64,000 bases of DNA, from the NCBI GenBank assembly GCA_948144175.1, contig CANXME010002275.1:5953001-6017000 (forward strand), given 5' to 3'. This DNA comes from Closterium sp. NIES-65 (taxonomy: Eukaryota; Streptophyta; Zygnematophyceae; Desmidiales; Closteriaceae). This document shows, piece after piece, positions 1 through 62,124 of this stretch. A program made the translations under genes and the position numbers. Under the pieces are notes generated by a model. That model had not been told where the DNA came from. It searched no databases and was given only the letters and a program-made list of their open reading frames with translations. Positions within the stretch are counted from its first letter, which is position 1, and each line of letters opens with the position of its first letter.

Positions 1-2413
1 GCCCTTGTTCTTGCTATTTTGCACACGCGAATCCCTTGTTCTTGCTATTTTGCACACGCTAGGCCCTTGTTCTTAAAATTTTGCACATGCTAGGCCCGTG
101 TTCTTGCTATTTTGCACACGCTAGGCCCTTGTTCTTCCAATTTTGCACACTATAGGCCCTTGTTCTTGAAATTCCGCACTCACTAGGCCCTTGTTCTTGA
201 AATTTTACACACGCTAGGCCCTTGTTCTTGCAATTTTGCACACGCTAGGCCCTTGTTCTTGCAATTTTGCACTCGCTAGGCCCTTGTTCTTGCAATTTTG
301 CACACGGTAGGCCCTTGTTCTTGCAATTTTGCACACGCTAGGCCCTTGTTCTTGCAATTTTGCACTCACTAGGCCCTTGTTCTTGCAATTTTGCACTCGC
401 TAGGCCCTTGTTCTTGCAATTTTGCACACGCTAGGCCCTTGTTCTTGCAATTTTGCACTCGCTAGGCCCATGTTCTTGCTATTTTGCACACGCTAGGTTC
501 TTGTTCTTGCTATTTTGCACACGCTAAGCTCTTGTTCTTAAAATTGTGCACATGCTAGGCCCGTGTTCTTGCTATTTTGCACACGCTAGGCCCTTGTTCT
601 TCCAATTTTGCACACGCTAGGCCCTTGTTCTTGAAACTGCGCACTCGCTAGGCCCTTGTTTTTGAAATTTTGCAAACGCTATGCTTTTGTTCTTGCAATT
701 TTGCACACGCTAGGCCCTTGTTCTTGCAATTTTAAACTCGCTAGGCCCTTGTTCTTGCAATTTTGCACACGCTAGGCCCTTGTTCTTGCAATTTTGCACA
801 CGCTAGGCTCTTGTTCTTGCAATTTTGCACTCGCTAGGCCCTTGTTCTTGGAATTTTGCACACGCTAGGCCCTTGTTCTTGAAATGTTGCACACGCTAGG
901 CCCTTCTTCTCCCTTTTTTGCACACGCTAGGCCCTTGTTCTTGCAATTTTGCACACGCTAGGCCCTTGTTCTTGCTATTTTGCACATGCTAGGCCCTTGT
1001 TCTTGCAATTTTGCACTCGCTAGGCCCATGTTCTTGCTAGTTTGCACACGCTAGGCCCTTGTTCTTGCTATTTTGCACTCGCTAGGCCCTTATTCTTGCT
1101 ATTTTGCACACACTAGGCCCTTTTTCTTGCAATTTTGCACTCGCTAGGCCCTTGTTCTTCCTATTTTGCACTCGCTAGGCCCTTGTTCTTGCAATTTTGC
1201 ACACACTAGGCCCTTGTTCTTGCTATTTTGCACACGCTAGGCCCTTGTTCTTAAAAATTTGCACATGCTAGGCCCATGTTCTTGCTATTTTGCACACGCT
1301 AGGCCCTTGTTCTTCCAATTTTGCACACGCTAGGCCCTTGTTCTTGAACTTGCGCACTCACTAGGCCCTTGTTCATGAAATTTTGCGCACGCTTTGCTCT
1401 TGTTCTTGCAATTTTGCACACGCTAGGCCCTTGTTCTTGCAATTTTGCACTCGCTAGGCCCTTGTTCTTGCAATTTTGCACACGCTAGGCACTTGTTCTT
1501 CCAATTTTGCACTCGCTAGGCCCTTGTTCTTGCAACTTTGCACACGATAGGCCCTTGTTCTCGCTATTTTGCACACACTAGGCCCTTGTTCTTGCTATTT
1601 TGCACATGATAGGCCCTTGTTCTTCCAGTTTTGCACACACTAGGCCCTTGTTCTTGAAATTTTGCACACGCTAGGCCCTTGTTCTTGCACTTTTGAACAC
1701 GCTAGGCACTTGTTTTTCCAATTTTGCAGTCGCCAGGCCCTTGTTCTTGCAATTTTGAACACACTAGGCCCTTGTTCTTCTAATTTTGCACATGCTAGAC
1801 CCTTGTTCTTGCTATTGTGCACACGTTGGGCCCTTGTTCCTCCAATTCTGCACTCGCTAGGCCCTTGTTCTTGAAATGTTGCACACGCTAGGCCCTTGTT
1901 CTTGCAATTTTGCGCACGCTAGGCCCTTGTTCTTCCAATTTTGCACATGTAGGCCCTTGTTCCTGAAATTTTGCACATGCTTGGCCCTTGTTCTTGAAAT
2001 TTTGCACGTGCTTGGCCCTTGTTCTTGCAATTTTTCACACGCTAGGCCCTTGTTTTTGCTATTTTGCACAGACTAGGCCCTTGTTCTCGCTATTTTGCAC
2101 ACGCTAGGCCCTTGTTCTGGAAATTTTGCACACGCTAGGCCCTTGTTCTTGCTATTTTGCACATGCTAGGCCCTTGTTCTTCCAGTTTTGCACACGCTAG
2201 GCCCTTGTTCTTGAAATTTTGCACTCGCTAGGTCCTTGTTCTTGAACTTTTGCACACGCTAGGCCCTTGTTCTTGCAGTTTTGCACACACTAGGCACTTT
2301 TTCTTCCAATTTTGCATTCGCTAGGCCCTTGTTCTCAAAATTTTGCACACGCTAGGCCCTTGTTCTTGCAATTTTGCACTCGCTAGGCCCTTGTTCTTGA
2401 AATTTTGCACACG

Positions 2414-2626
2414 CTAGGCCCTTGTCCTTGCTATTTTGCACACGCTAGGCCCTTGTTCTTCCAATTTTGCACATGCTAGGCCCTTGTTCTTGAAATTTTG
2501 CACATGCTTGGCCCTTGTTCTTGAAATTTGCACGTGCTTGGCCCTTGTTCTTGCAACTTTGCACACGCTAGGCCCTTGTTGTTGCAATTTTGCACTCGCT
2601 AGGCCCTTGTTCTTGCAATTTTGCAC
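2414..2626 (+). repeat. Marker block with a 30-bp monomer (1 of 9)
   Basis: This block of about seven monomers contains TTGAAATTTGCACGTG, which lacks one T of the usual four and makes a 30-bp monomer. A GCAACTTTG monomer and a TTGTTGTTGCAATT monomer follow it. The same ordered block occurs at 5,172-5,384, 5,636-5,848, 10,502-10,714, 11,524-11,736, 34,057-34,269, 37,993-38,205, 38,457-38,669 and 43,848-44,060, only in domains A and A'. Because of the one-base loss the reading phase shifts, so the block gives a 70-codon open stretch on the minus strand; I regard that as a by-product. The block is a good tracer for amplification history. Confidence 0.85.
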
Positions 2627-4909
2627 ACGCTAGGCCCTTGTTCTTCCAATTTTGCACACACTAGGCCCTTTTTCTTGCTATTTTGCTCACGCTAGGCCCT
2701 TGTTCTTGAAATTTTGCACACGCTAGGCCCTTGTTCTTGCTATTTTGCACATGCTAGGCCCTTGTTCTTCCAGTTTTGCACACGCTAGGCTCTTGTTCTT
2801 GCTATTTTGCACACGCTAGGCCCTTGTTCTTGCTATTTTGCACACGCTAGGCCCTTGTTCTTGAAATTGTGCACACGCTAGGCCCTTGTTCTTGCTATTT
2901 TGCACACGCTAGGCCCTTGTTCTTCCAGTTTTGCACACGCTAGGCCCTTGTTCTTGAAATTTTGCACACGCTAGGTCCTTGTTCTTGAAACTTTGCACAC
3001 GCTAGGCCCTTGTTCTTGCACTTTTGCACACGCTACGCACTTGTTCTTCCAATTTTGCACTCGCCAGGCCCTTGTTCTTGAAATTTTGCACACACAAGGC
3101 CCTTGTTCTTCCAATTTTGCACAGGCTAGGCCCTTGTTCTTGCTATTTTGCACACGCTATGCCCTTGTTCCTCCAATTCTGCACTCGCTAGGCCCTTGTT
3201 CTTGAAATGTTGCGCACGCTATGCCCTTGTTCTTCCAATTTTGCACATGCTATGCCCTTGTTCCTGAAATTTTGCACATGCTTGGCCCTTGTTCTTGAAA
3301 TTTTGCACATGCTTGGCCCTTGTTCTTGCAATTTTGCACATGTTAGGCCCTTGTTTTTACTATTTTGCACACACTAGGCCCTTGTTTTTGCCATTTTGCA
3401 CACGCTAGGCCCCTGTTCTTGAACTTTTGCACACGCTAGGCCCTTGGTCTTGCTATTTTGCACATGCTAGGCCCTTGTTCTTCCAATTTTGCACTCGTTA
3501 GGCCCTTGTTCTCAAAATTTTGCACACGCTAGGCCCTTGATCTTGCAATTTCGCACACGCTAGGCCCTTGTTCTTCCAATTTTGCACTCGCTAGGCCCTT
3601 GTTCTTGCAATTTTGCACACGCTAGGCCCTTGTTCTTGCAATTTTGCACACGCTAGGCCCTTGTTCTTGCAGTTTTGTACTCGCTTGGCCCTTGTTCTTG
3701 AAACTTTGCACACGCTAGGCCCTTGTTCTTGCTATTTTGCACACGCTAGGCCCTTGTTCTTCTAATTTTGCACATGCTAGGCCCTTTTTCTTGAAATTTT
3801 GCACATGCTTGGCCCTTGTTCTTAAAATTGTGCACGTGCTTGGCCCTTGTTCTTGCAATTTTGCACCCGCTAGTCCTTTGTTGTTGCAATTTTGCACTCG
3901 CTAGGCCCTTGTTCTTGCATTTTTGCACACGCTAGGCCCTTGTTCTTCCAATTTTGCGCACACTAGGCCCTTGTTCTTGCTATTTTGCACACGCTAGGCC
4001 CTTGTTCTTCTAATTTTGCACATGCTAGGCCCTTGTTCTTGCTATTGTGCACACGTTGGGCCCTTGTTCCTCCAATTCTGCACTCGCTAGGCCCTTGTTC
4101 TTGAAATGTTGCACACGCTAGGCCCTTGTTCTTGCAATTTTGCGCACGCTAGGCCCTTGTTCTTCCAATTTTGCACATGCTAGGCCCTTGTTCCTGAAAT
4201 TTTGCACATGCTTGGCCCTTGTTCTTGAAATTTTGCACGTGCTTGGCCCTTGTTCTTGCAATTTTTCACACGCTAGGCCCTTGTTTTTGCTATTTTGCAC
4301 ACACTAGGCCCTTGTTCTTGTTATTTTGCACACGCTAGGCCCTTGTTCTGGAAATTTTGCACACACTAGGCCCTTGTTTTTGCTATTTTGCACATGCTAG
4401 GCCCTTGTTCTTCCAGTTTTGCACACGCTAGGCCCTTGTTCTTGCAGTTTTGCACACACTAGGCACTAGTTCTTCAAATTTTGCACTCGCTAGGCCCTTG
4501 TTCTCGCAATTTTGCACACGCTAGGCCCTTGTTCTTCTAGTTTTGCACTCGCTAGGACCTTGTTCTTGCAATTTCGCACACGCTAAGCCCTTGTTCTTGC
4601 AATTTTGCACACGCTAGGCCCTTGTTCTTGCAGTTTTGCACACACTAGGTACTTGTTCTTCAAATTTTGCACTCGCTAGGCCCTTGTTCTCGCAATTTTG
4701 CACACGCTAGGCCCTTGTTCTTCTAGTTTTGCACTCGCTAGGACCTTGTTCTTGCAATTTCGCACACACTAAGCCCTTGTTCTTGCAATTTCGCACACAC
4801 TAAGCCCTTGTTCTTGCAATTTTGCACACGCTAGGCACTTGTTCTTCCAATTTTGCACTCGCTAGGCACTTGTTCTTGCAATTTTGCACACGCTAGGCCC
4901 TTGTTCTTG

Positions 4910-5840
4910 CAATTTTGCACACGCTAGGCCCTTGTTCTTGCTATTTTGCACACGCTAGGCCCTTGTTCTTCCAATATTGCACTCGCTAGGCCCTTGTTCT
5001 TGCAATTGTGCACACGCTAGGCCCTTGTTCTTCCAATTTTGCACTCGCTAGGCCCTTGTTCTTGCAATTTTGCACACGCTAGGCTCTTGTTCTTGCAAAT
5101 TTGCACACGCTAGGCCCTTGCTCTTGAAATTTTGCACTCGCTAGGCCCTTGTTCTTGAAATTTTGCACACGCTAGGCCCTTGTCCTTGCTATTTTGCACG
5201 CGCTAGGCCCTTGTTCTTCCAATTTTGCACATGCTAGGCCCTTGTTCTTGAAATTTTGCACATGCTTGGCCCTTGTTCTTGAAATTTGCACGTGCTTGGC
5301 CCTTGTTCTTGCAACTTTGCACACGCTAGGCCCTTGTTGTTTCAATTTTGCACTCGCTACGCCCTTGTTCTTGCAATTTTGCACACGCTAGGCCCTTGTT
5401 CTTGCTATTTTGCACACGCTAGGCCCTTGTTCTTCCAATTTTGCACTCGCTAGGCCCTTGTTCTTGCAATTGTGCACACGCTAGGCCCTTGTTCTTCCAA
5501 TTTTGTACTCGCTAGGCCCTTGTTCTTGCAATTTTGCACACGCTAGGCTCTTGTTCTTGCAATTTTGCACACGCTAGGCCCTTGCTCTTGAAATTTTGCA
5601 CTCGCTAGGCCCTTGTTCTTGAAATTTTGCACACGCTAGGCCCTTGTCCTTGCTATTTTGCACACGCTAGGCCCTTGTTCTTCCAATTTTGCACATGCTA
5701 GGCCCTTGTTCTTGAAATTTTGCACATGCTTGGCCCTTGTTCTTGAAATTTGCACGTGCTTGGCCCTTGTTCTTGCAACTTTGCACACGCTAGGCCCTTG
5801 TTGTTGCAATTTTGCACTCGTTAGGCACTTGTTCTTGCAA
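4910..5840 (+). repeat. 464-bp tandem pair in domain A
   Basis: Two copies of a unit of 15 monomers (14 of 31 bp and one of 30 bp, 464 bp in all) lie side by side, each holding the 30-bp marker monomer (blocks at 5,172 and 5,636). The same pair with the same 464-bp spacing is found in domain A' (blocks at 37,993 and 38,457). The pair therefore arose before the A/A' duplication. Outer limits are approximate because neighbouring monomers are alike. Confidence 0.8.
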
Positions 5841-6809
5841 TTTTGCACACGCTAGGCCCTTGTTCTTCTAATTTTGCACACACTAGGCCCTTGTTCTTGC
5901 TATTTTGCACACGCTAGGCCCTTGTTCTTGAAATTTTGCACACGCTAGGCCCTTGTTCTTGCTATTTTGAACATGCTAGGCCCTTGTTCTTCCAGTTTTG
6001 CACACGCTAGGCCTTTGTTCTTGCAATTTTGCACACGCTAGGCCCTTGTTCTTCCAATTTTGCACTCGCTAGGCCCTTGTTCTTGCTATTTTGCACACGC
6101 TAGGCCCTTGTTCTTGCTATTTTGCACACGCTAGGCCCTTGTTCTTGAAATTTTGCACACGCTAGGCCCTTGTTCTTGCAATTTTGCACTCGCTAGGCCC
6201 TTGTTCTTGAAATTTTGCACACGCTAGGCCCTTGTTCTTGAAATTTTGCACACGCTAGGCACTTGTTCTTCCTATTTTGCACTTGCTAGGCCCTTGTTCT
6301 TGAAAGTTTGCACACGCTAGGCCCTTGTTCTTGAAATTTTGCACATGCTAGGCCGTTGTTCTTGCTTTATTGCACACGCTAGGCCCTTTTTCTTCCAATT
6401 TTGCACATGCTAGGCCCTTGTTCTTGAAATTTTGCACATGCTTGGCCCTTGTTCTTGAAATTTTGCACGTGCTTGGCCCTTGTTCTTGCAATTTTGCACA
6501 CGCTAGGCCCTTGTTCTTGCAAGTTTGCACTTGCTAGGCCCTTGTTCTTGCAATTTTGCACACGCTAAGCCCTTGTTCTTCCAATTTTGTACTCGCTACG
6601 CCCTTATTCTTGCAATTTTGCACAAGATAGGCCCTTGTTCTTGCTATTTTGCACACACTAGGCCCTTGTTCTTGCTATTTTGCACACGCTAGGCCCTTGT
6701 TCATGAAATTTTGCACACGCTAAGCCCTTGTTCTTGCTATGTTGCACATGCTAGGCCCTTGTTCTTCCAGTTTTGCAAACGCTAGGCCCTTGTTCTTGAA
6801 ATTTTGCAC

Positions 6810-7987
6810 TCGCTAGGTCCTTGTTCTTGAAATTTTGCACACGCTAGGCCCTTGTTCTTGCACATTTGCACACGCTAGGCTCTTGTTCTTCCAATTTTGC
6901 ACATGCCAGGCCCTTGTTCTTGAAATTTTGCACACACAAGGCCCTTGTTCTTCCAATTTTGCACATGCTAGGCCCTTGTTCTTGCTATTTTGCACACGCT
7001 AGGCCCTTGTTCCTCCAATTCTGCACTCGCTAGGCCCTTGTTCTTGAAATGTTGCACACGCTAGGCCCTTGTTCTTGCAATTTTGCGCACACTAGGCCCT
7101 TGTTCTTTCAATTTTGCACATGCTATGCCCTTGTTCCTGAAATTTTGCACATGCTTGGCCCTTGTTCTTGAAATTTTACACATGCTTGGCCCTTGTTCTT
7201 GCAATTTTGCACACGCTAGGCCCTTGTTTTTGCTATTTTGCACACACTAGGCCCTTGATCTTGCTATTTTGCACACGCTAGGCCCCTGTTCTTGAAATGT
7301 TGCACACGCTAGGCCCTTGGTCTTGCTATTTTGCACATGCTAGGCCCTTGTTCTTCCAGTTTTGCACACGCTAGGCCCTTGTTCTTGAAATTTTGCACTC
7401 GCTAGGTCCTTGTTCTGGAAATTTTGCACACGCTAGGCCCTTGTTCTTGCACTTTTGCACACGCTAGGCTCTTGTTCTTCCAATTTTGCACATGCCAGGC
7501 CCTTGTTCTTGAAATTTTGCACACACAAGGCCCTTCTTCTTCCAATTTTGCACATGCTAGGCCCTTGTTCTTGCTATTTTGCACACCCTAGGCCCTTGTT
7601 CCTCCAATTCTGCACTCGCTAGGCCCTTGTTCTTGAAATGTTGCACACGCTAGGCCCTTGTTCTTGCAATTTTGCGCACGCTAGGCCCTTGTTCTTTCAA
7701 TTTTGCACATGCTATGCCCTTGTTCCTGAAATTTTGCACATGCTTGGCCCTTGTTCTTGAAATTTTACACATGCTTGGCCCTTGTTCTTGCAATTTTGCA
7801 CACGCTAGGCCCTTGTTTTTGCTATTTTGCACACACTAGGCCCTTGATCTTGCTATTTTGCACACGCTAGGCCCCTGTTCTTGAAATGTTGCACACGCTA
7901 GGCCCTTGGTCTTGCTATTTTGCACATGCTAGGCCCTTGTTCTTCCAGTTTTGCACACGCTAGGCCCTTGTTCTTGAAATTTTGCAC
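6810..7987 (+). repeat. 589-bp tandem pair (19 monomers)
   Basis: A 19-monomer unit is repeated once, at about 6,810-7,398 and 7,399-7,987. Shared markers in order are a GGTCCTTGTTCT monomer, CACACACAAGGCCC, CTCCAATTCTGC, GCACATGCTATGCCC, and a GGCCCCTGTTC plus CCTTGGTCTTG pair. The copies differ at only a few positions by eye. A corresponding single segment lies near 39,665-40,250 in A', so this pair probably formed after the A/A' split. Confidence 0.8.
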
Positions 7988-10214
7988 TCGCTAGGTGCTT
8001 GTTCTTGAACTTTTGCACACGCTAGGCCCTTGTTCTTGCCATTTTGCACACGCTAGGCCCTTGTTCTTCCAATTTTGCACATGCTAGGCCCTTGTTCTTG
8101 AAATTTTGCTCTAGCTAGGCCCTTGTTCTTGAAATTCTGCACGTGCTTGGCCCTTGTTCTTGCAATTTTGCACACGCTAGGCCCTTGTTGTTGCAATTTT
8201 GCACTCGCTAGGCCCTTGTTCTTGCAATTTTGCACACGCTAGGCCCTTGTTCTTCCAATTTTGCACACACTAGGCCCTTGTTCTTGCTATTTTGCACACG
8301 CTAGGCCCTTGTTTTTGAAAATTTGCACATGCTAGGCCCTTGTTCTTGCTATTTTGCACATGCTAGGCCCTTGTTCTTCCAGTTTTGCACACGCTAGGCC
8401 CTTGTTCTTGAAATTTTGCACTCGCTAGGTCCTTGTTCTTGAAATTTTGCACACGCTAGGCCCTTGTTCTTGCACTTTTGCACACGCTAGGCAATTGTTC
8501 TTCCAATTTTGCACTTGCTAGGCCCTTGTTCTTGAAATTTTGCACACACTAGGCCCTTGTTGTTACAATTTTGCACACGCTATGCCCTTGTTCTTGCAAT
8601 TTTGCACACCCTAGGCCCTTGTTCTTTAAATTTTGCACTCGCTAGGCCCTTGTTCTTGAAATTTTGCACACATTAGGCCCTTGTTCTTGCTATTTTGCAC
8701 ATGCTAGGCCCTTGTTCTTCCAGTTTTGCACACCCTAGGCCCTTGTTTTTAAAATTTTGCACTCGCTAGGCTCTCGTTCTTGAAATTTTGCACTCGCTAG
8801 GCCCTTGTTCTTGAAATTTTGCACATGCTAGGCCCTTGTTCTTCCAATTTTGCACACGCTAGGCCCTTGTTCTTCCAAGTTTGCACACGCTAGGCCCTTG
8901 TTCTTGCAATTTTGCCCATGACAGGCCCTTGTTCTTGAAATTTTGCACACGCTAGGCCCTTGTTCTTGCAATTTTGCACACGCTAGGCCCTTGTTCTTCC
9001 AATTTTGCACTCGCTAGGCCCTTGTTCTTGCAATTTTGCACACGCTAGGCCCTTGTTCTCGCTATTTTGCACACGCTAGGCCCTTGTTCTTGAAATTTTG
9101 CACATGCTAGGCCCTTGTTCTTGCTATTTTGACACGCTAGGCCCTTGTTCTTCCAATTCTGCACACGCTAGGCCCTTGTTCTTGAAATTTTGCACTCGCT
9201 AGGCCCTTGTTCTTGAAATTTTTGCACACGCTAGGCCCCTGTTCTTGCTATTTTGCACACGCTAGGACCTTGTTCTTGCAATTTTGCACTCGCAAGGCCC
9301 TTGTTCTTGAAATTTTGCACACGCTAGGCCCTTGTTCTTGCAATTTTGCACACGCTAGGCACTTGTTCTTCCAATTTTGCACTTGCTAGGCCCTTGTTCT
9401 TGAAATTTTGCACACGCTAGGCCCTTGTTCTTGCGATTTTGCGCACGCTAGGCCCTTGTTCTTCCAATTTTGCACATGCTAGGCCCTTGTTCCTGAAATT
9501 TTGCACGTGCTTGGCCCTTGTTCTTGAAATTTTGCACGTGCTTGGCCCTTGTTCTTCCAAATTTGTTCACACTAGGCCCTTGTTCTTGCTATTTTGAACA
9601 CACTAGGCCCTTGTTCTTCTAATTTTGCACATGCTAGGCCCTTGTTCTTGCTATCGCGCACAGGTTGGGCCCTTGTTCCTCCAATTCTGCACTCGCTAGG
9701 CCCTTGTTCTTGAAATGTTGCACACGCTAGGCCCTTGTTCTTGCAATTTTGCGCACGCTAGGCCCTTGTTCTTCCAATTTTGCACATGCTAGGCCCTTGT
9801 TCCTGAAATTTTGCACATGCTTGGCCCTTGTTTTTGAAATTTTGCACGTGTTTGGCCCTTGTTCTTGCAATTTTGCACACGCTAGGCCCTTGTTTTTGCT
9901 ATTTTGCACACACTAGGCCCTTGTTCTTGTTATTTTGCACACGCTAGGCCCTTGTTCTTGAAATTTTGCACACGCTAGGCCCTTTTTCTTGCTATTTTGC
10001 ACATGCCAGGCCCTTGTTCTTCCAGTTTTGCACACGCTAGGCCCTTGTTCTTGAAATTTTGCACTCGCTAGGTCCTTGTTCTTGAACTTTTGCACACGCT
10101 AGGCCCTTGTTCTTGCAGTTTTGCACACACTAGGCACTTGTTCTTCAAATTTTGCACTCGCTAGGCCCTTGTTCTCGCAATTTTGCACACGCTAGGCCCT
10201 TGTTTTTCCAATTT

Positions 10215-11940
10215 TGCACTCGCTAGGCCCTTGTTCTTGCAATTTTGCACACGCTAGGCCCTTGTTCTTGCTATTTTGCACACGCTAGGCCCTTTTTCTT
10301 CCAATTTTGCACTCGCTAGGCCCTTGTTCTTGCAATTGTGCACATGCTAGGCCCTTGTTCTTCCAATTTTGCACTCGCTAGGCCCTTGTTCTTTCAATTT
10401 TGCACACGCTAGGCTCTTGTTCTTGCAATTTTGCACACGCTAGGCCCTTGCTCTTGAAATTTTGCACTAGCTAGGCCCTTGTTCTTGAAATTTTGCACAC
10501 GCTAGGCCCTTGTCCTTGCAATTTTGCTTACGCTAGGCCCTTGTTCTTCCAATTTTGCACATGCTAGGCCCTTGTTCTTGAAATTTTGCACATGCTTGGC
10601 CCTTGTTCTTGAAATTTGCACGTGCTTGGCCCTTGTTCTTGCAACTTTGCACATGCTAGGCCCTTGTTGTTGCAATTTTGCACTCGCTAGGCCCTTGTTC
10701 TTGCAATTTTGCACACGCTAGGCCCTTTTTCTTCCAATTTTGCACACACTAGGCCCTTGTTCTTGCTATTTTGCACACGCTAGGCCCTTGTTCCTGAAAT
10801 TTTGCACACGCTAGGCCCTTGTTCTTGCTATTTTGAACATGCTAGGCCCTTATTCTTCCAGTTTTGCACACGCTAGGCCCTTGTTCTTGCAATTTTGCAC
10901 ACGCTAGGCCCTTGTTCTTGCAGTTTTGCACACACTAGGCACTTGTTCTTCCAATTTTGCACTCGCTAGGCCCTTGTTCTTGCAATTTTGCACACGCTAG
11001 GCCCTTGTTCTTGCTATTTTGCACACGCTAGGCCCTTTTTCTTCCAATTTTGCACTCGCTAGGCCCTTGTTCTTGCAATTGTGCACATGCTAGGCCCTTG
11101 TTCTTCCAATTTTGCACTCGCTAGGCCCTTGTTCTTTCAATTTTGCACACGCTAGGCTCTTGTTCTTGCAATTTTGCACACGCTAGGCCCTTGTTCTTGC
11201 AGTTTTGCACACACTAGGCACTTGTTCTTCCAATTTTGCACTCGCTAGGCCCTTGTTCTTGCAATTTTGCACACGCTAGGCCCTTGTTCTTGCTATTTTG
11301 CACACGCTAGGCCCTTTTTCTTCCAATTTTGCACTCGCTAGGCCCTTGTTCTTGCAATTGTGCACATGCTAGGCCCTTGTTCTTCCAATTTTGCACTCGC
11401 TAGGCCCTTGTTCTTTCAATTTTGCACACGCTAGGCTCTTGTTCTTGCAATTTTGCACACGCTAGGCCCTTGCTCTTGAAATTTTGCACTAGCTAGGCCC
11501 TTGTTCTTGGAATTTTGCACACGCTAGGCCCTTGTCCTTGCAATTTTGCTTACGCTAGGCCCTTGTTCTTCCAATTTTGCACATGCTAGGCCCTTGTTCT
11601 TGAAATTTTGCACATGCTTGGCCCTTGTTCTTGAAATTTGCACGTGCTTGGCCCTTGTTCTTGCAACTTTGCACATGCTAGGCCCTTGTTGTTGCAATTT
11701 TGCACTCGCTAGGCCCTTGTTCTTGCAATTTTGCACACGCTAGGCCCTTTTTCTTCCAATTTTGCACACACTAGGCCCTTGTTCTTGCTATTTTGCACAC
11801 GCTAGGCCCTTGTTCCTGAAATTTTGCACACGCTAGGCCCTTGTTCTTGCTATTTTGAACATGCTAGGCCCTTATTCTTCCAGTTTTGCACACGCTAGGC
11901 CCTTGTTCTTGCAATTTTGCACACGCTAGGCCCTTGTTCT
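10215..11940 (+). repeat. 1,022-bp duplication with a nested 279-bp unit
   Basis: The stretch at about 10,215-10,917 reappears at about 11,237-11,939, offset 1,022 bp (32 monomers of 31 bp plus one of 30 bp). Between them a nine-monomer unit (279 bp) is doubled: the marker CTTTTTCTTCCAATTTTGC starts at 10,292, 11,035 and 11,314. The copies look nearly identical, even sharing uncommon variants such as TTTTGCTTACGC and the 30-bp monomer. A single copy exists in A' (block 43,848-44,060), so the extra copy is specific to A. Confidence 0.85.
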
Positions 11941-28000: not shown

Positions 28001-28088
28001 CTATTTTGCACACGCTAGGCCCTTGTTCTTGCAATTGTGCACACGCTAGGCCCTTGTTCTTGCAATTTTGCACACGCTAAGCCCTTGT
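25051..28088 (+). repeat. Three consecutive domain B units (33, 33, 32 monomers)
   Basis: Measured between TCTAGC landmarks, the units span 25,051-26,073 (1,023 bp), 26,074-27,096 (1,023 bp) and 27,097-28,088 (992 bp). They share GATAGGCCC or GCTAGGCCC after GCACGTG, TTGTAGTTTTGCATT, the run of CAATATTGCAC monomers, GCACGCGCTAGGCAC, GGCCCTGGTTC and the GCGGTTTTGC trio. The 31-bp length difference is one monomer. This is the most regular part of the window. Confidence 0.85.
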
Positions 28089-33000: not shown

Positions 33001-35287
33001 CGCTAGGCCCATGTTCTTGCTAGTTTGCACACGCTAGGCCTTTGTTCTTGCTATTTTGCACTCGCTAGGCCCTTATTCTTGCTATTTTGCACACACTAGG
33101 CCCTTGTTCTTGCAATTTTGCACACGCTAGGCACTTGTTCTTCCAATTTTGCACTCGCTAGGCCCTTGTTCTTGCAATTTTGCACACGATAGGCCCTTGT
33201 TCTCGCTATTTTGCACACACTAGGCCCTTGTTCTTGCTATTTTGCACATGATAGGCCCTTGTTCTTCCAGTTTTGCACACACTAGGCCCTTGTTCTTGAA
33301 ATTTTGCACACGCTAGGCCCTTGTTATTGCACTTTTGAACACGCTAGGCACTTGTTTCTCCAATTTTGCAGTCGCCAGGCCCTTGTTCTTGAAATTTTGA
33401 ACACACTAGGCCCTTGTTCTTCTAATTTTGCACATGCTAGGCCCTTGTTCTTGCTATTGTGCACACGCTGGGCCCTTGTTCCTCCAATTCTGCACTCGCT
33501 AGGCCCTTGTTCTTGAAATGTTGCACACGCTAGGCCCTTGTTCTTGCAATTTTGCGCACGCTAGGCCCTTGTTCTTCCAATTTTGCACATGCTAGGCCCT
33601 TGTTCCTGAAATTTTGCACATGCTTGGCCCTTGTTCTTGAAATTTTGCACGTGTTTGGCCCTTGTTCTTGCAATTTTTCACACGCTAGGCCCTTGTTTTT
33701 GCTATTTTGCACACACTAGGCCCTTGTTCTTGCTATTTTGCACACGCTAGGCCCTTGTTCTGGAAATTTTGCACACGCTAGGCCCTTGTTCTTGCTATTT
33801 TGCACATGCTAGGCCCTTGTTCTTCCAGTTTTGCACACGCTAGGCCCTTGTTCTTGAAATTTTGCACTCGCTAGGTCCTTGTTCTTGAACTTTTGCACAC
33901 GCTAGGCCCTTGTTCTTGCAGTTGTGCACACACTAGGCACTTTTTCTTCCAATTTTGCACTCGCTAGGCCCTTGTTCTCAAACTTTTGCACACGCTAGGC
34001 CCTTGTTCTTGCAATTTTGCACTCGCTAGGCCCTTGTTCTTGAAATTTTGCACACGCTAGGCCCTTGTCCTTGCTATTTTGCACACGCTAGGCCCTTGTG
34101 CTTCCAATTTTGCACATGCTAGGCCCTTGTTCTTGAAATTTTGCACATGCTTGGCCCTTGTTCTTGAAATTTGCACGTGCTTGGCCCTTGTTCTTGCAAC
34201 TTTGCACACGCTAGGCCCTTGTTGTTGCAATTTTGCACTCGCTAGGCCCTTGTTCTGGCAATTTTGCACACGCTAGGCCCTTGTTCTTCCAATTTTGCAC
34301 ACACTAGGCCATTTTTCTTGCTATTTTGCACACGCTAGGCCCTTGTTCTTGAAATTTTGCACACGCTAGGCACTTGTTCTTGCTATTTTGCACATGCTAG
34401 GCCCTTGTTCTTCCAGTTTTGCACACGCTAGGCCCTTGTTCTTGCTATTTTGCACACGCTAGGCCCTTGTTCTTGCTATTTTGCACACGCTAGGCCCTTG
34501 TTCTTGAAATTGTGCACACGCTAGGCCCTTGTTCTTGCTATTTTGCACACGCTAGGCCCTTGTTCTTGCAATTTTGCACTCGCTAGGCCCTTGTTCTTGA
34601 AATTTTGCACATGCTAGGCCCTTGTTCTTGCAATTTTGCACACGCTAGGCACTTGTTCTTCATATTTTGCACTTGCTAGGCCCTTGTTCTTGAAAGTTTG
34701 CACACGATAGGCCCTTGTTCTTGCTATATTGCACACGCTAGGCCCTTTTTCTTCCAATTTTGCACATGCTAGGCCCTTGTTCTTGAAATTTTGCACATGC
34801 TTGGCCCTTGTTCTTGAAATTTTGCACGTGCTTGGCCCTTGTTCTTGCAATTTTGCACACGCAAGGCCCTTGTTCTTGCAATTTTGCACTTGCTAGGCCC
34901 TTGTTCTTGCAATTTTGCACACGCTAAGCCCTTGTTCTTCCAATTTTGCACTCGCTAGGCCCTTATTCTTGCAATTTTGCACAAGATAGGCCCTTGTTCT
35001 TGCTATTTTGCACACACTAGGCCCTTGTTCTTGCTATTTTGCACACGCTAGGCCCTTGTTCATGAAATTTTGCACACGCTAGGCCCTTGTTCTTGCTATT
35101 TTGCACATGCTAGGCCCTTATTCTTCCAGTTTTGCACACGCTAGGCCCTTGTTCTTGAAATTTTGCACTCGCTAGGTCCTTGTTCTTGAACTTTTGCACA
35201 CGCTAGGCCCTTGTTCTTGCAGTTTTGCACACACTAGGCACTTGTTCTTCCAATTTTGCACTCGCTAGGCCCTTGTTCTCAAAATTT

Positions 35288-37333
35288 TGCACACGCTAGG
35301 CCCTTGATCTTGCAATTTTGCACACGCTAGGCCCTTGTTCTTCCAATTTTGCACTCGCTAGGCCCTTGTTCTTGCAATTTTGCACACGCTAGGCCCTTGT
35401 TCTTGCAATTTTGCACACGCTAGGCCCTTGTTCTTGCAGTTTTGTACTCGCTTGGCCCTTGTTCTTGAAACTTGGCACACGCTAGGCCCTTGTTCTTGCT
35501 ATTTTGCACACGCTAGGCCCTTGTTCTTCTAATTTTGCACATGCTAGGCCCTTGTTCTTGAAATTTTGCACATGCTTGGCCCTTGTTCCTAAAATTGTGC
35601 ACGTGCTTGGCCCTTGTTCTTGCAATTTTGCACACGCTAGTCCCTTGTTGTTGCAATTTTGCACTCGCTAGGCCCTTGTTCTTGCATTTTTGCACACGCT
35701 AGGCCCTTGTTCTTCCAATTTTGCGCACACTAGGCCCTTGTTCTTGCTATTTTGCACACGCTAGGCCCTTGTTCTTCTAATTTTGCACATGCTAGGCCCT
35801 TGTTCTTGCTATTGTGCACACGTTGGGCCCTTGTTCCTCCAATTCTGCACCCGCTAGGCCCTTGTTCTTGAAATGTTGCACACGCTAGGCCCTTGTTCTT
35901 GCAATTTTGCGCACGCTAGGCCCTTGTTCTTCCAATTTTACACATGCTAGGCCCTTGTTCCTGAAATTTTGCACATGCTTGGCCATTGTTCTTGAAATTT
36001 TGCACGTGCTTGGCCCTTGTTCTTGCAATTTTTCACACGCTAGGCCCTTGTTCTTGCAATTTTGCACTTGCTAGGCCCTTGTTCTTGCAATTTTGCACAC
36101 GCTAAGCCCTTGTTCTTCCAATTTTGCACTCGCTAGGCCCTTATTCTTGCAATTTTGCACAAGATAGGCCCTTGTTCTTGCTATTTTGCACACACTAGGC
36201 CCTTGTTCTTGTAATTTTGCACACGCTAGGCCCTTGTTCTGGAAATTTTGCACACGCTAGGCCCTTGTTCTTGCTATTTTGCACATGCTAGGCCCTTGTT
36301 CTTGCTATTTTGCACACGCTAGGCCCTTGATCTTGCAATTTTGCACACGCTAGGCCCTTGTTCTTCCAATTTTGCACTCGCTAGGCCCTTGTTCTTGCAA
36401 TTTTGCACACGCTAGGCCCTTGTTCTTGCAATTTTGCACACGCTAGGCCCTTGTTCTTGCAGTTTTGTACTCGCTTGGCCCTTGTTCTTGAAACTTGGCA
36501 CACGCTAGGCCCTTGTTCTTGCTATTTTGCACACGCTAGGCCCTTGTTCTTCTAATTTTGCACATGCTAGGCCCTTGTTCTTGAAATTTTGCACATGCTT
36601 GGCCCTTGTTCCTAAAATTGTGCACGTGCTTGGCCCTTGTTCTTGCAATTTTGCACACGCTAGTCCCTTGTTGTTGCAATTTTGCACTCGCTAGGCCCTT
36701 GTTCTTGCATTTTTGCACACGCTAGGCCCTTGTTCTTCCAATTTTGCGCACACTAGGCCCTTGTTCTTGCTATTTTGCACACACTAGGCCCTTGTTCTTC
36801 TAATTTTGCACATGCTAGGCCCTTGTTCTTGCTATTGTGCACACGTTGGGCCCTTGTTCCTCCAATTCTGCACCCGCTAGGCCCTTGTTCTTGAAATGTT
36901 GCACACGCTAGGCCCTTGTTCTTGCAATTTTGCGCACGCTAGGCCCTTGTTCTTCCAATTTTACACATGCTAGGCCCTTGTTCCTGAAATTTTGCACATG
37001 CTTGGCCATTGTTCTTGAAATTTTGCACGTGCTTGGCCCTTGTTCTTGCAATTTTTCACACGCTAGGCCCTTGTTCTTGCAATTTTGCACTTGCTAGGCC
37101 CTTGTTCTTGCAATTTTGCACACGCTAAGCCCTTGTTCTTCCAATTTTGCACTCGCTAGGCCCTTATTCTTGCAATTTTGCACAAGATAGGCCCTTGTTC
37201 TTGCTATTTTGCACACACTAGGCCCTTGTTCTTGTAATTTTGCACACGCTAGGCCCTTGTTCTGGAAATTTTGCACACGCTAGGCCCTTGTACTTGCTAT
37301 TTTGCACATGCTAGGCCCTTGTTCTTGCTATTT
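35288..37333 (+). repeat. 1,023-bp tandem duplication (33 monomers)
   Basis: The unit at about 35,288-36,310 is repeated at 36,311-37,333. Shared rare variants include AAACTTGGCACACG, CCTAAAATTGTGCACGTG, TAGTCCCTTGTTG and CTGCACCCGCTAGG. I counted only about three differences by eye over 1,023 bp, for example CACACG against CACACA near 36,780 and GTTCTTG against GTACTTG near 37,290. Domain A has a single related copy (about 3,530-4,300), so this is a late event. Confidence 0.9.
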
Positions 37334-37729
37334 TGCACACGCTAGGCCCTTGTTCTTGCTATTTTGCACATGCTAGGCCCTTATTCTTCCAGTTTTGCAC
37401 ACGCTAGGCCCTTGTTCTTGAAATTTTGCACTCGCTAGGTCCTTGTTCTTGAACTTTTGCACACGCTAAGCCCTTGTTCTTGCAGTTTTGCACACACTAG
37501 GCACTTGTTCTTCAAATTTTGCACTCGCTAGGCCCTTGTTCTCGCAATTTTGCACACGCTAGGCCCTTGTTCTTCCAGTTTTGCACTCGCTAGGACCTTG
37601 TTCTTGCAATTTTGCACACGCTAAGCCCTTGTTCTTGCAATTTTGCACACGCTAGGCCCTTGTTCATGCAGTTTTGCACACACTAGGCACTTGTTCTTCC
37701 AATTTTGCACTCGCTAGGCCCTTGTTCTT

Positions 37730-38670
37730 GCAATTTTGCACACGCTAGGCCCTTGTTCTTGCTATTTTGCACACGCTAGGCCCTTGTTCTTCCAATTTTG
37801 CACTCGCTAGGCCCTTGTTCTTGCAATTGTGCACACGCTAGGCCCTTGTTCTTCCAATTTTGCACTCGCTAGGCCCTTGTTCTTGCAATTTTGCACACGC
37901 TAGGCTCTTGTTCTTGCAATTTTGCACACGCTAGGCCCTTCCTCTTGAAATTTTGCACTCGCTAGGCCTTTGTTCTTGAAATTTTGCACACGCTAGGCCC
38001 TTGTCCTTGCTATTTTGCACACGCTAGGCCCTTGTTCTTCCAATTTTGCACATGCTAGGCCCTTGTTCTTGAAATTTTGCACATGCTTGGCCCTTGTTCT
38101 TGAAATTTGCACGTGCTTGGCCCTTGTTCTTGCAACTTTGCACACGCTAGGCCCTTGTTGTTGCAATTTTGCACTCGCTAGGCCCTTGTTCTTGCAATCT
38201 TGCACACGATAGGCCTTTGTTCTTGCTATTTTGCACACGCTAGGCCCTTGTTCTTCCAATTTTGCACTCGCTAGGCCTTTGTTCTTGCAATTGTGCACAC
38301 GCAAGGCCCTTGTTCTTCCAATTTTGCACTCGCTAGGCCCTTGTTCTTGCAATTTTGCACACGCTAGGCTCTTGTTCTTGCAATTTTGCACACGCTAGGC
38401 CCTTGCTCTTGAAAGTTTGCACTCGCTAGGCCCTTGTTCTTGAAATTTTGCACACGCTAGGCCCTTGTCCTTGCTATTTTGCACACGCTAGGCCCTTGTT
38501 CTTCCAATTTTGCACATGCTAGGCCCTTGTTCTTGAAATTTTGCACATGCTTGGCCCTTGTTCTTGAAATTTGCACGTGCTTGGCCCTTGTTCTTGCAAC
38601 TTTGCACACGCTAGGCCCTTGTTGTTGCAATTTTGCACTCGCTAGGCCCTTGTTCTTGCAATTTTGCACA
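37730..38670 (+). repeat. 464-bp tandem pair in domain A'
   Basis: This is the counterpart of the pair at 4,910-5,840, with the 30-bp marker blocks at 37,993 and 38,457. Spacing is 464 bp in both places. Its presence in A and A' dates it before the large duplication. Confidence 0.8.
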
Positions 38671-40129
38671 CGCTAGGCCCTTGTTCTTCCAATTTTGCAC
38701 ACACTAAGCCCTTGTTCTTGCTATTTTGCACACGCTAGGCCCTTGTTTTTGAAATTTTGCACACGCTAGGCCCTTGTTCTTGCTATTTTGAACATGCTAG
38801 GCCCTTGTTCTTCCAGTTTTGCACACGCTAGGCCCTTGTTCTTGCAATTTTGCACACGCTAGGCCCTTGTTCTTCCAATTTTGCACTCGCTAGGCCCTTG
38901 TTCTTGCACTTTTGCACACGCTAGGCCCTTATTCTTGCTATTTTGCACACGCTAGGCCCTTGTTCTTGCTATTTTGCACACGCTAGGCCCTTATTCTTGA
39001 AATCTTGCACACGCTAGGCCCTTGTTCTTGCAATTTTGCACTCGCTAGGCCCTTGTTCTTGAAATTTTGCACACGCTAGGCCCTTGTTCTTGAAATTTTG
39101 CACACGCTAGGCACTTGTTCTTCCTAATTTGCACTTGCTAGGCCCTTGTTCTTGAAAGTTTGCACACGCTAGGCCCTTGTTCTTGAAATTTTGCACATGC
39201 TTGGCCCTTGTTCTTGCTATATTGCACACGCTAGGCCCTTTTTCTTCCAATTTTGCACATGCTAGGCCCTTGTTCTTGAAATTTTGCACATGCTTGGCCC
39301 TTGTTCTTGAAATTTTGCACGTGCTTGGCCCTTGTTCTTGCAATTTTGCACACGCTAGGCCCTTGTTCTTGCAATTTTGCACTTGCTAGGCCCTTGTTCT
39401 TGCAATTTTGCACATGCTAAGCCCTTGTTCTTCCAATTTTGCACTCGCTAGGCCCTTATTCTTGCAATTTTGCACAAGATAGGCCCTTGTTCTTGCTATT
39501 TTGCACACACTAGGCCCTTGTTCTTGCTATTTTGCACACGCTAGGCCCTTGTTCATGAAATTTTGCACACGCTAGGCCCTTGTTCTTGCTATGTTGCACA
39601 TGCTAGGCCCTTGTTCTTCCAGTTTTGCAAACGCTAGGCCCTTGTTCTTGAAATTTTGCACTCGCTAGGTCCTTGTTCTTGAAATTTTGCACACGCTAGG
39701 CCCTTGTTCTTGCACTTTTGCACACGCTAGGCTCTTGTTCTTCCAATTTTGCACTCGCCAGGCCCTTGTTCTTGAAATTTTGCACACACAAGGCCCTTGT
39801 TCTTCCAATTTTGCACATGCTAGGCCCTTGTTCTTGCTATTTTGCACACGCTAGGCCCTTGTTCCTCCAATTCTGCACTCGCTAGGCCCTTGTTCTTGAA
39901 ATGTTGCACTCGCTAGGCACTTGTTCATGCAATTTTGCGCACGCTATGCCCTTGTTCTTTCAATTTTGCACATGCTATGCCCTTGTTCCTGAAATTTTGC
40001 ACATGCTTGGCCCTTGTTCTTGAAATTTTACACATGCTTGGCCCTTGTTCTTGCAATTTTGCACACGCTAGGCCCTTGTTTTTGCTATTTTGCACACACT
40101 AGGCCCTTGTTCTTGCTATTTTGCACACG

Positions 40130-41560
40130 CTAGGCCCCTGTTCTTGAAATTTTGCACACGCTAGGCCCTTGGTCCTGCTATTTTGCACATGCTAGGCCCT
40201 TGTTCTTCCAAATTTGCACACGCTAGGCCCTTGTTCTTGAAATTTTGCACTCGCTAGGTCCTTGTTCTTGAACTTTTGCACACGCTAGGCCCTTGTTCTT
40301 GCAGTTTTGCACACACTAGGCACTTGTTCTTCCAATTTTGCACTCGCTAGGCCTTTGTTCTCAAACGTTTGCACACGCTAGGCCCTTGCTCTTGCAATTT
40401 TGCACACGCTAGGCCCTTGTTCTTGAAATTTTGCACATGCTAGGCCCTTGTTCTTGAAATTTTGCACACGCTAGGCCCTTGTTCTTGCCATTTTGCACCC
40501 GCTAGGCCCTTGTTCTTCCAATTTTGCACATGCTAGGCCCTTGTTCTTGAAATTTTGCACATGCTTGGCCCTTGTTCTTGAAATTCTGCACGTGCTTGGC
40601 CCTTGTTTTTGCAATTTTGCACACGCTAGGCCCTTGTTGTTGCAATTTTGCACTCGCTAGGCCCTTGTTCTTGCAATTTTGCACACGCTCGGCCCTTGTT
40701 CTTCCAATTTTGCACACACTAGGCCCTTCTTCTTGCAATTTTGCACACGCTAGGCCCTTGTTTTTGCTATTTTGCACACACTAGGCCCTTGTTCTTGCTA
40801 TTTTGCACACGCTAGGCCCCTGTTCTTGAAATTTTGCACACGCCAGGCCCTTGGTCTTGCTATTTTGCATATGCTAGGCCCTTGTTCTTCCAAATTTGCA
40901 CACGCTAGGCCCTTGTTCTTGAAATTTTGCACTCGCTAGGTCCTTGTTCTTGAACTTTTGCACACACTAGGCCCTTGTTCTTGCAGTTTTGCACACACTA
41001 GGCACTTGTTCTTCCAATTTTGCACTCGCTAGGCCTTTGTTCTCAAACTTTTGCACACGCTAGGCCCTTGCTCTTGCAATTTTGCAGACGCTAGGCCCTT
41101 GTTCTTCCAATTTTGCACCCACTAGGCCCTTGTTCTTGCAATTTTGCACACGCTAGGCCCTTGTTCTTGCAATTTTGCACACGCTAGGCCCTTGTTCTTG
41201 AAATTTTGCACATGCTAGGCCCTTGTTCTTGAAATGTTGCACACGCTAGGCCCTTGTTCTTGCCATTTTGCACACGCTAGGCCCTTGTTCTTCCAATTTT
41301 GCACATGCTAGGCCCTTGTTCTTGAAATTTTGCACATGCTTGGCCCTTGTTCTTGAAATTCTGCACGTGCTTGGCCCTTGTTCTTGCAATTTTGCACACG
41401 CTAGGCCCTTGTTGTTGCAATTTTGCACTCGCTAGGCCCTTGTTCTTGCAATTTTGCACCCGCTCGGCCCTTGTTCTTCCAATTTTGCACACACTAGGCC
41501 CTTGTTCTTGCTATTTTGCACACGCTAGGCCCTTGTTTTTGAAAATTTGCACATGCTAGG
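40130..41560 (+). repeat. Tandem pair of about 0.7-0.8 kb in A'
   Basis: The left part of the unit recurs at a 682-bp offset (GGCCCCTGTTC at 40,134 and 40,816) and the right part at a 775-bp offset (blocks at 40,471 and 41,246). The 93-bp difference is three monomers gained or lost inside one copy. Domain A has one matching copy near 8,053-8,235. Limits are approximate. Confidence 0.7.
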
Positions 41561-44500
41561 CCCTTGTTCTTGCTATTTTGCACATGCTAGGCCCTTGTTC
41601 TTCCAGTTTTGCACACGCTAGGCCCTTGTTCTTGAAATTTTGCACTCGCTAGGTCCTTGTTCTTGAAATTTTGCACACGCTATGCCCTTGTTCTTGCACT
41701 TTTGCACATGCTAGGCACTTGTTCTTCCAATTTTGCACTTGCTAGGCCCTTGTTCTTGAAATTTTGCACACGCTAGGCCCTTGTTGTTACAATTTTGCAC
41801 ACGCTATGCCCTTGTTCTTGCAATTTTGCACACGCTAGGCCCTTGTTCTTTAAATTTTGCACTCGCTAGGCCCTTGTTCTTGAAATTTTGCACACATTAG
41901 GCCCTTGTTCTTGCTATTTTGCACATGCTAGGCCCTTGTTCTTCAAGTTTTGCACACCCTAGGCCATTGTTCTTAAAATTTTGCACTCGCTAGGCTCTTG
42001 TTCTTGAAATTTTGCACTCGCTAGGCCCTTGTTCTTGAAATTTTGCACATGCTAGGCCCTTGTTCTTGCAATTTTGCACACGCTAGGCCCTTGTTCTTCC
42101 AATTTTGCACACACTAGGCCCTTGTTCTTGCAATTTTGCCCATGACAGGCCCTTGTTCTTGAAATTTTGCACACGCTAGGCCCTTGTTCTTGCAATTTTG
42201 CACACGCTAGGCCCTTGTTCTTCCAATTTTGCACTCGCTAGGCCCTTGTTCTTGCAATTTTGCACACGCTAGGCCCTTGTTCTCGCTATTTTGCACACGC
42301 TAGGCCCTTGTTCTTGAAATTTTGCACATGCTAGGCCCTTGTTCTTGCTATTTTGACACGCTAGACCCTTGTTCTTCCAATTCTGCACACGCTAGGCCCT
42401 TGTTCTTGAAATTTTGCACTCGCTAGGCCCTTGTTCTTGAAATGTTTGCACACGCTAGGCCCCTGTTCTTGCTATTTTGCAAACGCTAGGACCTTGTTCT
42501 TGCAATTTTGCACTCGCTAGGCCCTTGTTCTTGAAATTTTGCACACGCTAGGCCCTTGTTCTTGCAATTTTGCACACGCTAGGCACTTGTTCTTCCAATT
42601 TTGCACTTGCTAGGCCCTTGTTCTTGAAATTTTGCACACGCTAGGCCCTTGTTCTTGCAATTTTGCGCACGCTAGGCCCTTGTTCTTCCAATTTTGCACA
42701 TGCTAGGCCCTTGTTCCTGAAATTTTGCACATGCTTGGCCCTTGTTCTTGAAATTTTGCACGTGCTTGGCCCTTGTTCTTCCAAATTTGTTCACACTAGG
42801 CCCTTGTTCTTGCTATTTTGAACACACTAGGCCCTTGTTCTTCTAATTTTGCACATGCTAGGCCCTTGTTCTTGCTATTGTGCACAGGCTGGGCCCTTGT
42901 TCCTCCAATTCTGCACTCGCTAGGCAATGTTCTTGAAATGTTGCACACGCTAGGCCCTTGTTCTTGCAATTTTGCGCACGCTAGGCCCTTGTTCTTCCAA
43001 TTTTGCACATGCTAGGCCCTTGTTCCTGAAATTTTGCACATGCTTGGCCCTTGTTCTTGAAATTTTGCACGTGTTTGGCCCTTGTTCTTGCAATTTTGCA
43101 CACGCTAGGCCCTTGTTTTGCTATTTTGCACACACTAGGCCCTTGTTCTTGTTATTTTGCACACGCTAGGCCCTTGTTCTTGAAATTTTGCACACGCTAG
43201 GCCCTTGTTCTTGCTATTTTGCACATGCCAGGCCCTTGTTCTTCCAGTTTTACACACGCTAGGCCCTTGTTCTTGAAATTTTGCACTCGCTAGGTCCTTG
43301 TTCTTGAACTTTTGCACACGCTAGGCCCTTGTTCTTGCAGTTTTGCACACACTAGGCACTTGTTCTTCAAATTTTGCACTCGCTAGGCCCTTGTTCTTGC
43401 AATTTTGCACACGCTAGGCCCTTGTTTTTCCAATTTTGCACTCGCTAGGCCCTTGTTCTTGCAATTTTGCACACGCTAAGCCCTTGTTCTTGCAATTTTG
43501 CACACGCTAGGCCCTTGTTCTTGCAGTTTTGCACACACTAGGCACTTGTTCTTCCTATTTTGCACTCGCTAGGCCCTTGTTCTTGCAATTTTGCACACGC
43601 TAGGCCCTTGTTCTTGCTATTTTGCACACGCTAGGCCCTTGTTCTTCCAATTTTGCACTCGCTAGGCCCTTGTTCTTGCAATTGTGCACATGCTAGGCCC
43701 TTGTTCTTTCAATTTTGCACTCGCTAGGCCCTTGTTCTTGCAATTTTGCACACGCTAGGCTCTTGTTCTTGCAATTTTGCACACGCTAGGCCCTTGCTCT
43801 TGAAATTTTGCACTCGCTAGGCCCTTGTTCTTGAAATTTTGCACACGCCAGGCCCTTGTCCTTGCTATTTTGCTTACGCTAGGCCCTTGTTCTTCCAATT
43901 TTGCACATGCTAGGCCCTTGTTCTTGAAATTTTGCACATGCTTGGCCCTTGTTCTTGAAATTTGCACGTGCTTGGCCCTTGTTCTTGCAACTTTGCACAT
44001 GCTAGGCCCTTGTTGTTGCAATTTTGCACTCGCTAGGCCCTTGTTCTTGCAATTTTGCACACGCTAGGCCCTTGTTCTTCCAATTTTGCACACACTAGGC
44101 CCTTGTTCTTGCTATTTTGCACACGCTAGGCCCTTGTTCTTGAAATTTTGCACACGCTAGGCCCTTGTTCTTGCTATTTTGAACATGCTAGGCCCTTATT
44201 CTTCCAGTTTTGCACACGCTAGGCCCTTGTTCTTGCAATTTTGCACACGCTAGGCCCTTGTTCTTCCAATTTTGCACTCGCTAGGCCCTTGTTCTTGCAA
44301 TTTTGCACACGCTAGGCCCTTATTCTTGCTATTTTGCACACGCTAGGCCCTTGTTCTTGCTATTTTGCACACGCTAGGCCCTTGTTCTTGAAATTTTGCA
44401 CACGCTAGGCCCTTGTTCTTGCAATTTTGCACTCGCAAGGCCCTTGTTCTTGAAATTTTGCACACGCTAGGCCCTTGTTCTTGAAATTTTGCACACGCTA

Positions 44501-45258
44501 GGCACTTGTTCTTCCTATTTTGCACTTGCTAGGCCCTTGTTCTTGAAAGTTTGCACACGCTAGGCCCTTGTTCTTGAAATTTTGCACATGCTAGGCCCTT
44601 GTTCTTGCTATATTGCACACGCTAGGCCCTTCTTCCAATTTTGCACATGCTAGGCCCTTGTTCTTGAAATTTTGCACATGCTTGGCCCTTGTTCTTGCAA
44701 TTTTGCACACGCTAGGCCCTTGTTCTTGCAATTTTGCATACACTAGGCCCTTGTTCTTGCAATTTTGCGCACACTAGGCCCTTGTTCCTGATAATGTGCA
44801 CATGCTAGGCCCTTGTTCTTGCAAATTTGCACACGCTAGGCCCTTGTTCTTGCAATTTTGCACATTCTAGGCCCTTGTTCTTGCAGTTTTGCACACGCTA
44901 GCCCCTTGTTCTTGAGGTTTTCCGCACGCTAGGCCCTTGTTCTTTCAATTTTGCACACGCTATGCCCTTGTTCTTGCAGTTTTGCACACGCTAGGCCCTT
45001 GTTCTTGCACGTTTGCACACGCTAGGCCCTTGTTCTTGCAATTTTGCACACGCTAGGCCCTTGTTCTTGCAATTTTGCACAAGCTAGGCCCTTTTTCTTG
45101 CAAGTTTGCACACGCTAGGCCCTTAATCTTGCAATTTTGCACACGCTAGGCCCTTGTTCTTGCAATTTGCACACGCTAGGCCCTTGTTCTTCCATTTTTG
45201 CACATGCTAGGCCGTTGTTCTTGCAATTTGCACAAGCTAGGCCCTTGTTCTTGCAATT

Positions 45259-61074: not shown

Positions 61075-61125
61075 TTTTGCACACTCTAGGCCCTTGTTCT
61101 TGCAATTTGCACACGCTAGGCCCTT

Positions 61126-61970: not shown

Positions 61971-62095
61971 ATATTTGTTGAGTGATGCTACCATTCGCAT
62001 TCACGTCTGTCTGTCTCCCATCATATGTTCGTGCGCTGCATGCGTGTTCTGAGTGTGTGCAAGAATTTGTGTTTTGTGCGGTTTGGTTTTTCTGA

Positions 62096-62112: not shown

Positions 62113-62124
62113 AATGTTATTTGG

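Follow-up and report, generated by a model that had tools for sequence, protein, structure and literature searches.

The window, a 64,000-nucleotide stretch of DNA from Closterium sp. NIES-65, is occupied over most of its length by a single short-monomer satellite. Tandem Repeats Finder assigned positions 1-61,977 to a repeat of period 31 (2000.7 copies, 88% matches), and the head-to-tail tandem arrangement of monomers over tens of kilobases that identifies a satellite DNA array is thus present across 61,977 bp. The continuity of the satellite is broken only by two inserts of ∼130 bp, near 59.0 and 61.0 kb; past 61,977 there are ∼870 bp of other sequence, after which the satellite resumes. No tRNA was found in the whole window, no Rfam family matched the region searched (58,800-64,000), and the longest open reading frame listed inside the satellite (frames of at least 60 amino acids, bacterial code) encodes 132 amino acids. 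The array and its subdivisions are as follows.

1 to 61,977, unstranded: 31-bp satellite array, ∼2,000 copies of the consensus GCCCTTGTTCTTGCAATTTTGCACACGCTAG (Tandem Repeats Finder and monomer parse)
1 to 1,740, unstranded: B-to-A transition zone at the left edge, a copy of 32,046-33,379 (class model and alignment)
1,740 to 13,541, unstranded: body of domain A, the first copy, with an internal ∼6-kb repeat and tandem pairs of 589 bp and 1,022 bp that are single in A'
13,541 to 31,085, unstranded: domain B, an irregular higher-order array of ∼1-kb units
31,085 to 33,379, unstranded: B-to-A' transition zone (class model and alignments)
33,379 to 44,684, unstranded: body of domain A', the second copy; it contains a tandem pair of 1,023 bp and breaks off within the second of its internal repeats, at a position that corresponds to 12,363 of A
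44,690 to 58,900, unstranded: domain C, of a different monomer class, holding a duplication spaced 5,936 bp
57,111 to 61,119, unstranded: tandem duplication of 2,004 bp (57,111-59,114 and 59,115-61,119, 99.4% identical), with a ∼130-bp non-satellite insert in each copy

The parse yielded 2,065 segments, and the analysis of monomers was based on the 1,999 that end at or before 61,977; the few spanning the two ∼130-bp inserts, although fitted by force to the monomer columns, were kept. Monomers were coded against the consensus, and pairs of monomers were scored by log-odds that weight rare variants. Three classes of monomer were distinguished, the first shared by A and A', the second found in B and the third in C with its tail. 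In controls the class model was right for 719 of 719 windows in A, 535 of 538 in B and 445 of 445 in C, an easy task as near-copies of the control windows remained in the training set. Blocks shared between domains number zero for A and C, for A' and C and for B and C, one for A and B and two for B and A'; the matches of B to A and A' are confined to the transition zones (1-496, 31,085-31,394 and 32,046-32,541), and none lies in the bodies of A or A'. The changes from A to B at 13,541 and from A' to C at 44,684 are abrupt. An earlier note on this DNA, made from the letters alone, had placed domain A between position 1 and ∼12.4 kb; the end of A' holds, at 44,684, but A is cut at the left by the window and reaches 13,541 at the right.

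The central claim of the earlier note, that a domain of ∼12 kb occurs twice, ∼32 kb apart and in the same order, is borne out by a collinear chain of matches and by controls that destroy the order of monomers. Between A (1-12,363) and A' (32,046-44,684) 10 ungapped blocks, neighbours among which may have one monomer in common, chain collinearly and include 314 of the 437 monomers of 1-13,541. The chained blocks are 98.3% identical (165 differences in 9,734 positions), compared with 87.6% for random A-A' monomer pairs, and the chain weight of 1,800 exceeds every value obtained in 200 shuffles of block order (mean 1,074, s.d. 145, maximum 1,464). Alignment of A to A' by monomers aligned 329 of them with a score of 1,525. 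This score fell to 20 when the monomer order of A' was reversed, and the maxima reached when A' was shuffled in blocks of 5, 10, 20 and 40 monomers (100 shuffles each) were 103, 284, 614 and 967, respectively. A local alignment with strict costs scored 1,229, against a maximum of 86 in 20 shuffles, while a gapped base-level alignment, in which the poorer stretches are counted too, is 96.7% identical (386 mismatches in 11,640 aligned bases). The long broken diagonal that the proposed check called for is present, exact matches of at least 80 bp occurring at offsets of 31,642-33,346 with starts from 152 to ∼12,100. For each of the eight offsets that had been reported between the copies, 200 bp was compared at every offset from 31,000 to 34,499, and the reported value was unsurpassed in all eight cases, with 96.5-99% identity; in three of them (at 4,118, 5,172 and 8,053) a second offset does equally well, owing to local repetition of the sequence. 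When gap extension was made very cheap, local alignment joined unrelated domains, and stricter costs were adopted. The base-level alignment, run globally, started at 31,395 and forced a weak pairing over the first kilobase, the start at 32,046 given by block chaining being better.

The offset between the copies changes along their length mostly in whole monomers. Several of these steps had been described as multiples of 31 bp, and most steps are such multiples; the exceptions in the gapped alignment are indels of 1-5 bp, a pair of gaps of 635 and 16 bp that together total 21 monomers, and a gap of 898 bp, which is 29 monomers minus one base. The step from 31,767 to 32,790 does correspond, as had been proposed, to a 1,023-bp tandem pair of A' (35,238/36,261), the members of which are 99.0% identical over 33 monomers and which is single in A. 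Domain A carries a tandem pair of 1,022 bp (10,196/11,218; 99.6%), which gives a step of −1,022, and another of 589 bp (6,755/7,344; 99.0%), which explains the offset of 32,263 beside that of 32,852; both are single in A'. These private pairs are 0.4-1.0% apart, closer than A is to A', and therefore most likely arose later than the A/A' copy. A and A' are collinear over a long distance and have each changed independently since they were copied, as in a segmental duplication within a satellite array, and the data support the view that they are true copies which were edited separately after the duplication.

How far the duplicated unit extends is addressed by the left flanks of the two copies. 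The first ∼1.4 kb of the window, previously counted as A, are partly of the B class and contain B-class monomer types. At the left edge the class model assigned 1-466 to B by 39 log units, 466-931 to A by 3.4, 931-1,396 to B by 11 and 1,396-1,740 to A by 27. Ahead of A' it assigned 31,085-31,581 to A by 6.2 log units, 31,581-32,046 to B by 35, 32,046-32,511 to B by 28, 32,511-33,007 to B by 8 and 33,007-33,379 to A by 16. The segment 1-1,740 aligns with 32,046-33,379 in three blocks of 97.8-98.9% identity, and in the flank itself 1-589 matches 32,046-32,634 at 98.6%. Both left flanks match four common places in B, and two of these places are themselves duplicates. Against B, 1-1,740 attained a best score of 34.2, with 4 diagonals of at least 25; the highest score in 100 shuffles of its monomer order was 17.3, and that of the A body, cut into six equal pieces (342/380 monomers), was 9.9. 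The bodies of A and A' gave no segment scoring at least 25 against B. The order of the locus is the end of a B domain, then A, B, A' and C. As A and A' are both preceded by a B-class end, the duplication reaches left past the edge of the window. The proposal that a unit of at least 32 kb, including domain B, was duplicated consequently survives in altered form: a B-class flank lies to the left of both A copies, but the window holds no second B, none being present from A' to the window end; the domain next to A' is C, which has no block in common with B. The natural reading, and the one that fits best, is a unit of B followed by A with a full length of probably ∼32.3 kb, as suggested by the distance between the right ends of the two copies (44,684 − 12,363 = 32,321 bp); the local offset follows the private duplications and ranges from 31.6 to 33.3 kb.

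The relative age of these events can be approached through a repeat of ∼6 kb inside A (3,998-7,839, termed A1, and 9,607-13,541, termed A2), which is matched in A' by 36,757-39,296 and 42,800-44,684. In 48 monomer quartets all 16 informative sites favour the pairs A1-A1' and A2-A2', with no site in favour of another grouping, a result that may be favoured by the construction of the quartets on the chain chosen for collinear A-A' matches. Distances in this set are 2.5% for A1-A2, 3.0% for A1'-A2', 1.75% for A1-A1' and 1.55% for A2-A2'. Where pairing is consistent from both sides (26 quartets), four of four informative sites again give the A1-A1' and A2-A2' grouping, with a smaller gap in the distances (2.1% for A1-A2, 1.9% for A1'-A2', 1.5% for both A1-A1' and A2-A2'). 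With caution as to the quartets, these data suggest that the ∼6-kb repeat in A came first, that the large copy followed, and that the private duplications of 0.6-1 kb were added last.

Both B and C display higher-order repeats, in which a unit of several monomers is repeated and the copies of the unit are more alike than monomers in general (87.7% identity for random monomer pairs). The units of B measure ∼1 kb (32-33 monomers), with a spacing that is most often 992 or 1,023 bp and also 961, 1,611, 2,046 bp and more. When 10 reference stretches of B, each of 12 monomers, were compared with the whole window, four had 9 matches, four had 5 and two had 2, selves included, and all matches fell within B. 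The length of 1,022-1,023 bp, seen in the duplications of both A and A', is also near the size of the B unit (992-1,023 bp). An exact pair of 2,092 bp in B, at 16,497 and 18,543 (spacing 2,046 bp), must be very recent unless it is an effect of assembly. Between other parts of B the distance is 2.8-3.2% (13,666-15,897 and 26,221-28,359 at 97.2% identity; 13,697-15,494 and 21,261-23,027 at 96.8%), compared with 2.1% for A/A' by the same method, although part of this internal distance may come from pairing monomers that are no true counterparts. These B parts are further apart than A and A', and B was therefore probably already long when A was copied. Several other B pairs are 98.2-98.8% alike. 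In C, the duplicated segments 46,077-50,278 and 52,014-56,214, spaced 5,936 bp, are 99.7% identical over 136 monomers and thus far closer than A and A'. The 2,092-bp pair of B, this pair of C and the 2,004-bp pair at the end of the array are among the youngest events of the locus.

Near the right end of the window a ∼130-bp non-satellite stretch occurs three times in near-identical form (58,938-59,085, 60,943-61,090 and 62,715-62,850), ending in ...GTCCTTAGTCTCTAAC with the satellite directly after it. It looks like an original left border of the satellite that the 2,004-bp duplication trapped inside the array, and it may be the mark of a spacer-plus-array unit. Between the two satellite arrays lies a non-satellite island of ∼870 bp (61,978-62,846). 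The motif of the ∼130-bp insert had no match in viral contigs, 61,960-62,860 had none in plasmids and phages, and four open reading frames of the island had none in Pfam. No convincing relative of the monomer or of the island turned up in the searched sets of prokaryote, virus, phage and plasmid sequences. The full monomer matched no viral contig, while its 17-bp core gave two single matches in genome contigs and two in viral contigs; as the surroundings of all four are without an array, they are taken for chance. A published report of this satellite sequence was not found in the open-licence PubMed Central literature. If the array has a function, it is likely to be exerted as bulk satellite heterochromatin rather than via the large-scale order.

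Offset steps of mostly whole monomers, in combination with tandem pairs at several scales, are the pattern that recombination between misaligned repeats leaves. For the large copy we consider it probable, though well short of assured, that ∼32 kb in the unit order B-A were duplicated in tandem through out-of-register recombination in the 31-bp satellite. In such a history the ∼6-kb repeat would have arisen inside A before the large copy. The mechanism that we infer for the duplication itself is an out-of-register event, which could be an unequal sister-chromatid exchange or break-induced replication restarted out of register, and the layout that results would be (B0)-A / B-A' / C, in which B0 would lie mostly upstream of the window. 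Each copy would then have gained its own tandem duplications of 0.6-1.0 kb, and the right end of A' would have been cut where A' meets C. The steps in offset, being mostly of whole monomers, are as exchange between repeats predicts. Some observations speak against a duplication of ∼32 kb. Domain A is 1.2 kb longer at the right than A', and for a tandem duplication of B plus A the end of A' must later have lost ∼1.2 kb, unless the breakpoints lay inside A; the class calls in the transition zones are also mixed, 466-931 and 31,085-31,581 leaning to A. The unit length of ∼32 kb is moreover deduced from a domain A that is seen twice and a B0 that would lie off the window, and the B-class flank could be a short flank carried with a smaller copied piece. 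Under such an account a piece of ∼12-14 kb, comprising A and a short B flank, was copied to a remote part of the array, inside B, for example by template switching or by way of an extrachromosomal circle. The window has two copies of nothing but A and ∼1.4 kb of its left flank, and a single B, which is consistent with this history, as is the abrupt A-to-B border at 13,541. It requires, however, an extra excision or jump, and the left end of the duplication lies beyond the window with no short left limit visible; we regard it as unlikely.

The spacing of 32 kb would instead be secondary if A and A' had once been nearer, in a unit of ∼14-20 kb, and B had grown between them by local amplification of ∼1-kb units. 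Such growth is in keeping with the ∼1-kb units of B, some of them recently duplicated (2,092 bp exact), and with the several B pairs whose age, at 98.2-98.8% identity, is about that of A/A' or less. The parts of B that are 2.8-3.2% apart, as against 2.1% for A/A', nonetheless indicate that a B of several kilobases probably pre-existed, and this course of events appears distinctly improbable. An artefact of assembly, in which one haplotype or read set was placed twice, has also to be considered, as satellites are prone to such errors. The two copies differ at 1.7% of chained positions, their internal duplications differ and so do their right neighbours (B and C, respectively); an end-to-end join of two haplotypes might in theory yield part of these differences, but we judge an artefact very improbable. 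A tandem duplication of the B-A unit is thus the reading that we retain. Its bolder extension, that the ∼32-kb B-A unit (∼1,040 monomers) is repeated many times in a super-higher-order array whose nested layers, from 31 bp through ∼1 kb and ∼6 kb to ∼32 kb, tell in what order amplification proceeded, is doubtful. If true, this unit would be exceptionally large for an ordered unit of a 31-bp monomer, and further repetition of the 32-kb unit would amount to ordered amplification at about a thousand times the scale of the monomer.

The significance of the locus lies in a nested record of duplication, consisting of the ∼6-kb repeat, the large block copy and the ∼1-kb duplications, that can be read in a satellite of short monomers. 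Such records allow the lengths of the exchange tracts that build satellites to be measured, a question usually studied on longer monomers. Among familiar satellites, alpha satellite has a monomer of 171 bp, and human HSat2 and HSat3 form long arrays of short monomers that differ from the 31-bp monomer described here. The higher-order repeats of primate alpha satellite resemble the present array in that distinct monomers in fixed order are copied as multi-monomer units, and the units differ less than the monomers (PMC11276891). In the orangutan, a 59-mer of this satellite is reported to be larger than any other primate higher-order repeat, and its copies diverge by 0.1% (PMC11276891), compared with 1.7% for A and A'. 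Unlike alpha satellite, the array studied here has a monomer of 31 bp and a largest copied unit of what would be ∼1,040 monomers (∼32 kb), and it presents two copies of the A part only, not a regular array of many copies. Satellites of short monomers with higher-order periods are in print at a smaller scale; human HSat1A has a 42-bp monomer and a nested 9-mer repeat of 378 bp (PMC9909926), and FabTR-2 of Lathyrus sativus has a 49-bp consensus and several higher-order patterns (PMC7004042). By description, the 9-mer of HSat1A (PMC9909926) is smaller than the ∼1-kb unit of domain B (32-33 monomers), and in contrast to both HSat1A and FabTR-2 several nested scales occur here in one stretch. RproSat29-31 of Rhodnius prolixus is a 31-bp satellite family, and the comparison concerns monomer length alone, equality of which is by itself no sign of relation (PMC8199985). 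The locus is ordinary satellite evolution, of the known higher-order-repeat kind and not a new type of system; its notable features are a scale that is large for so short a monomer and well resolved, and layers that can be ordered in time.
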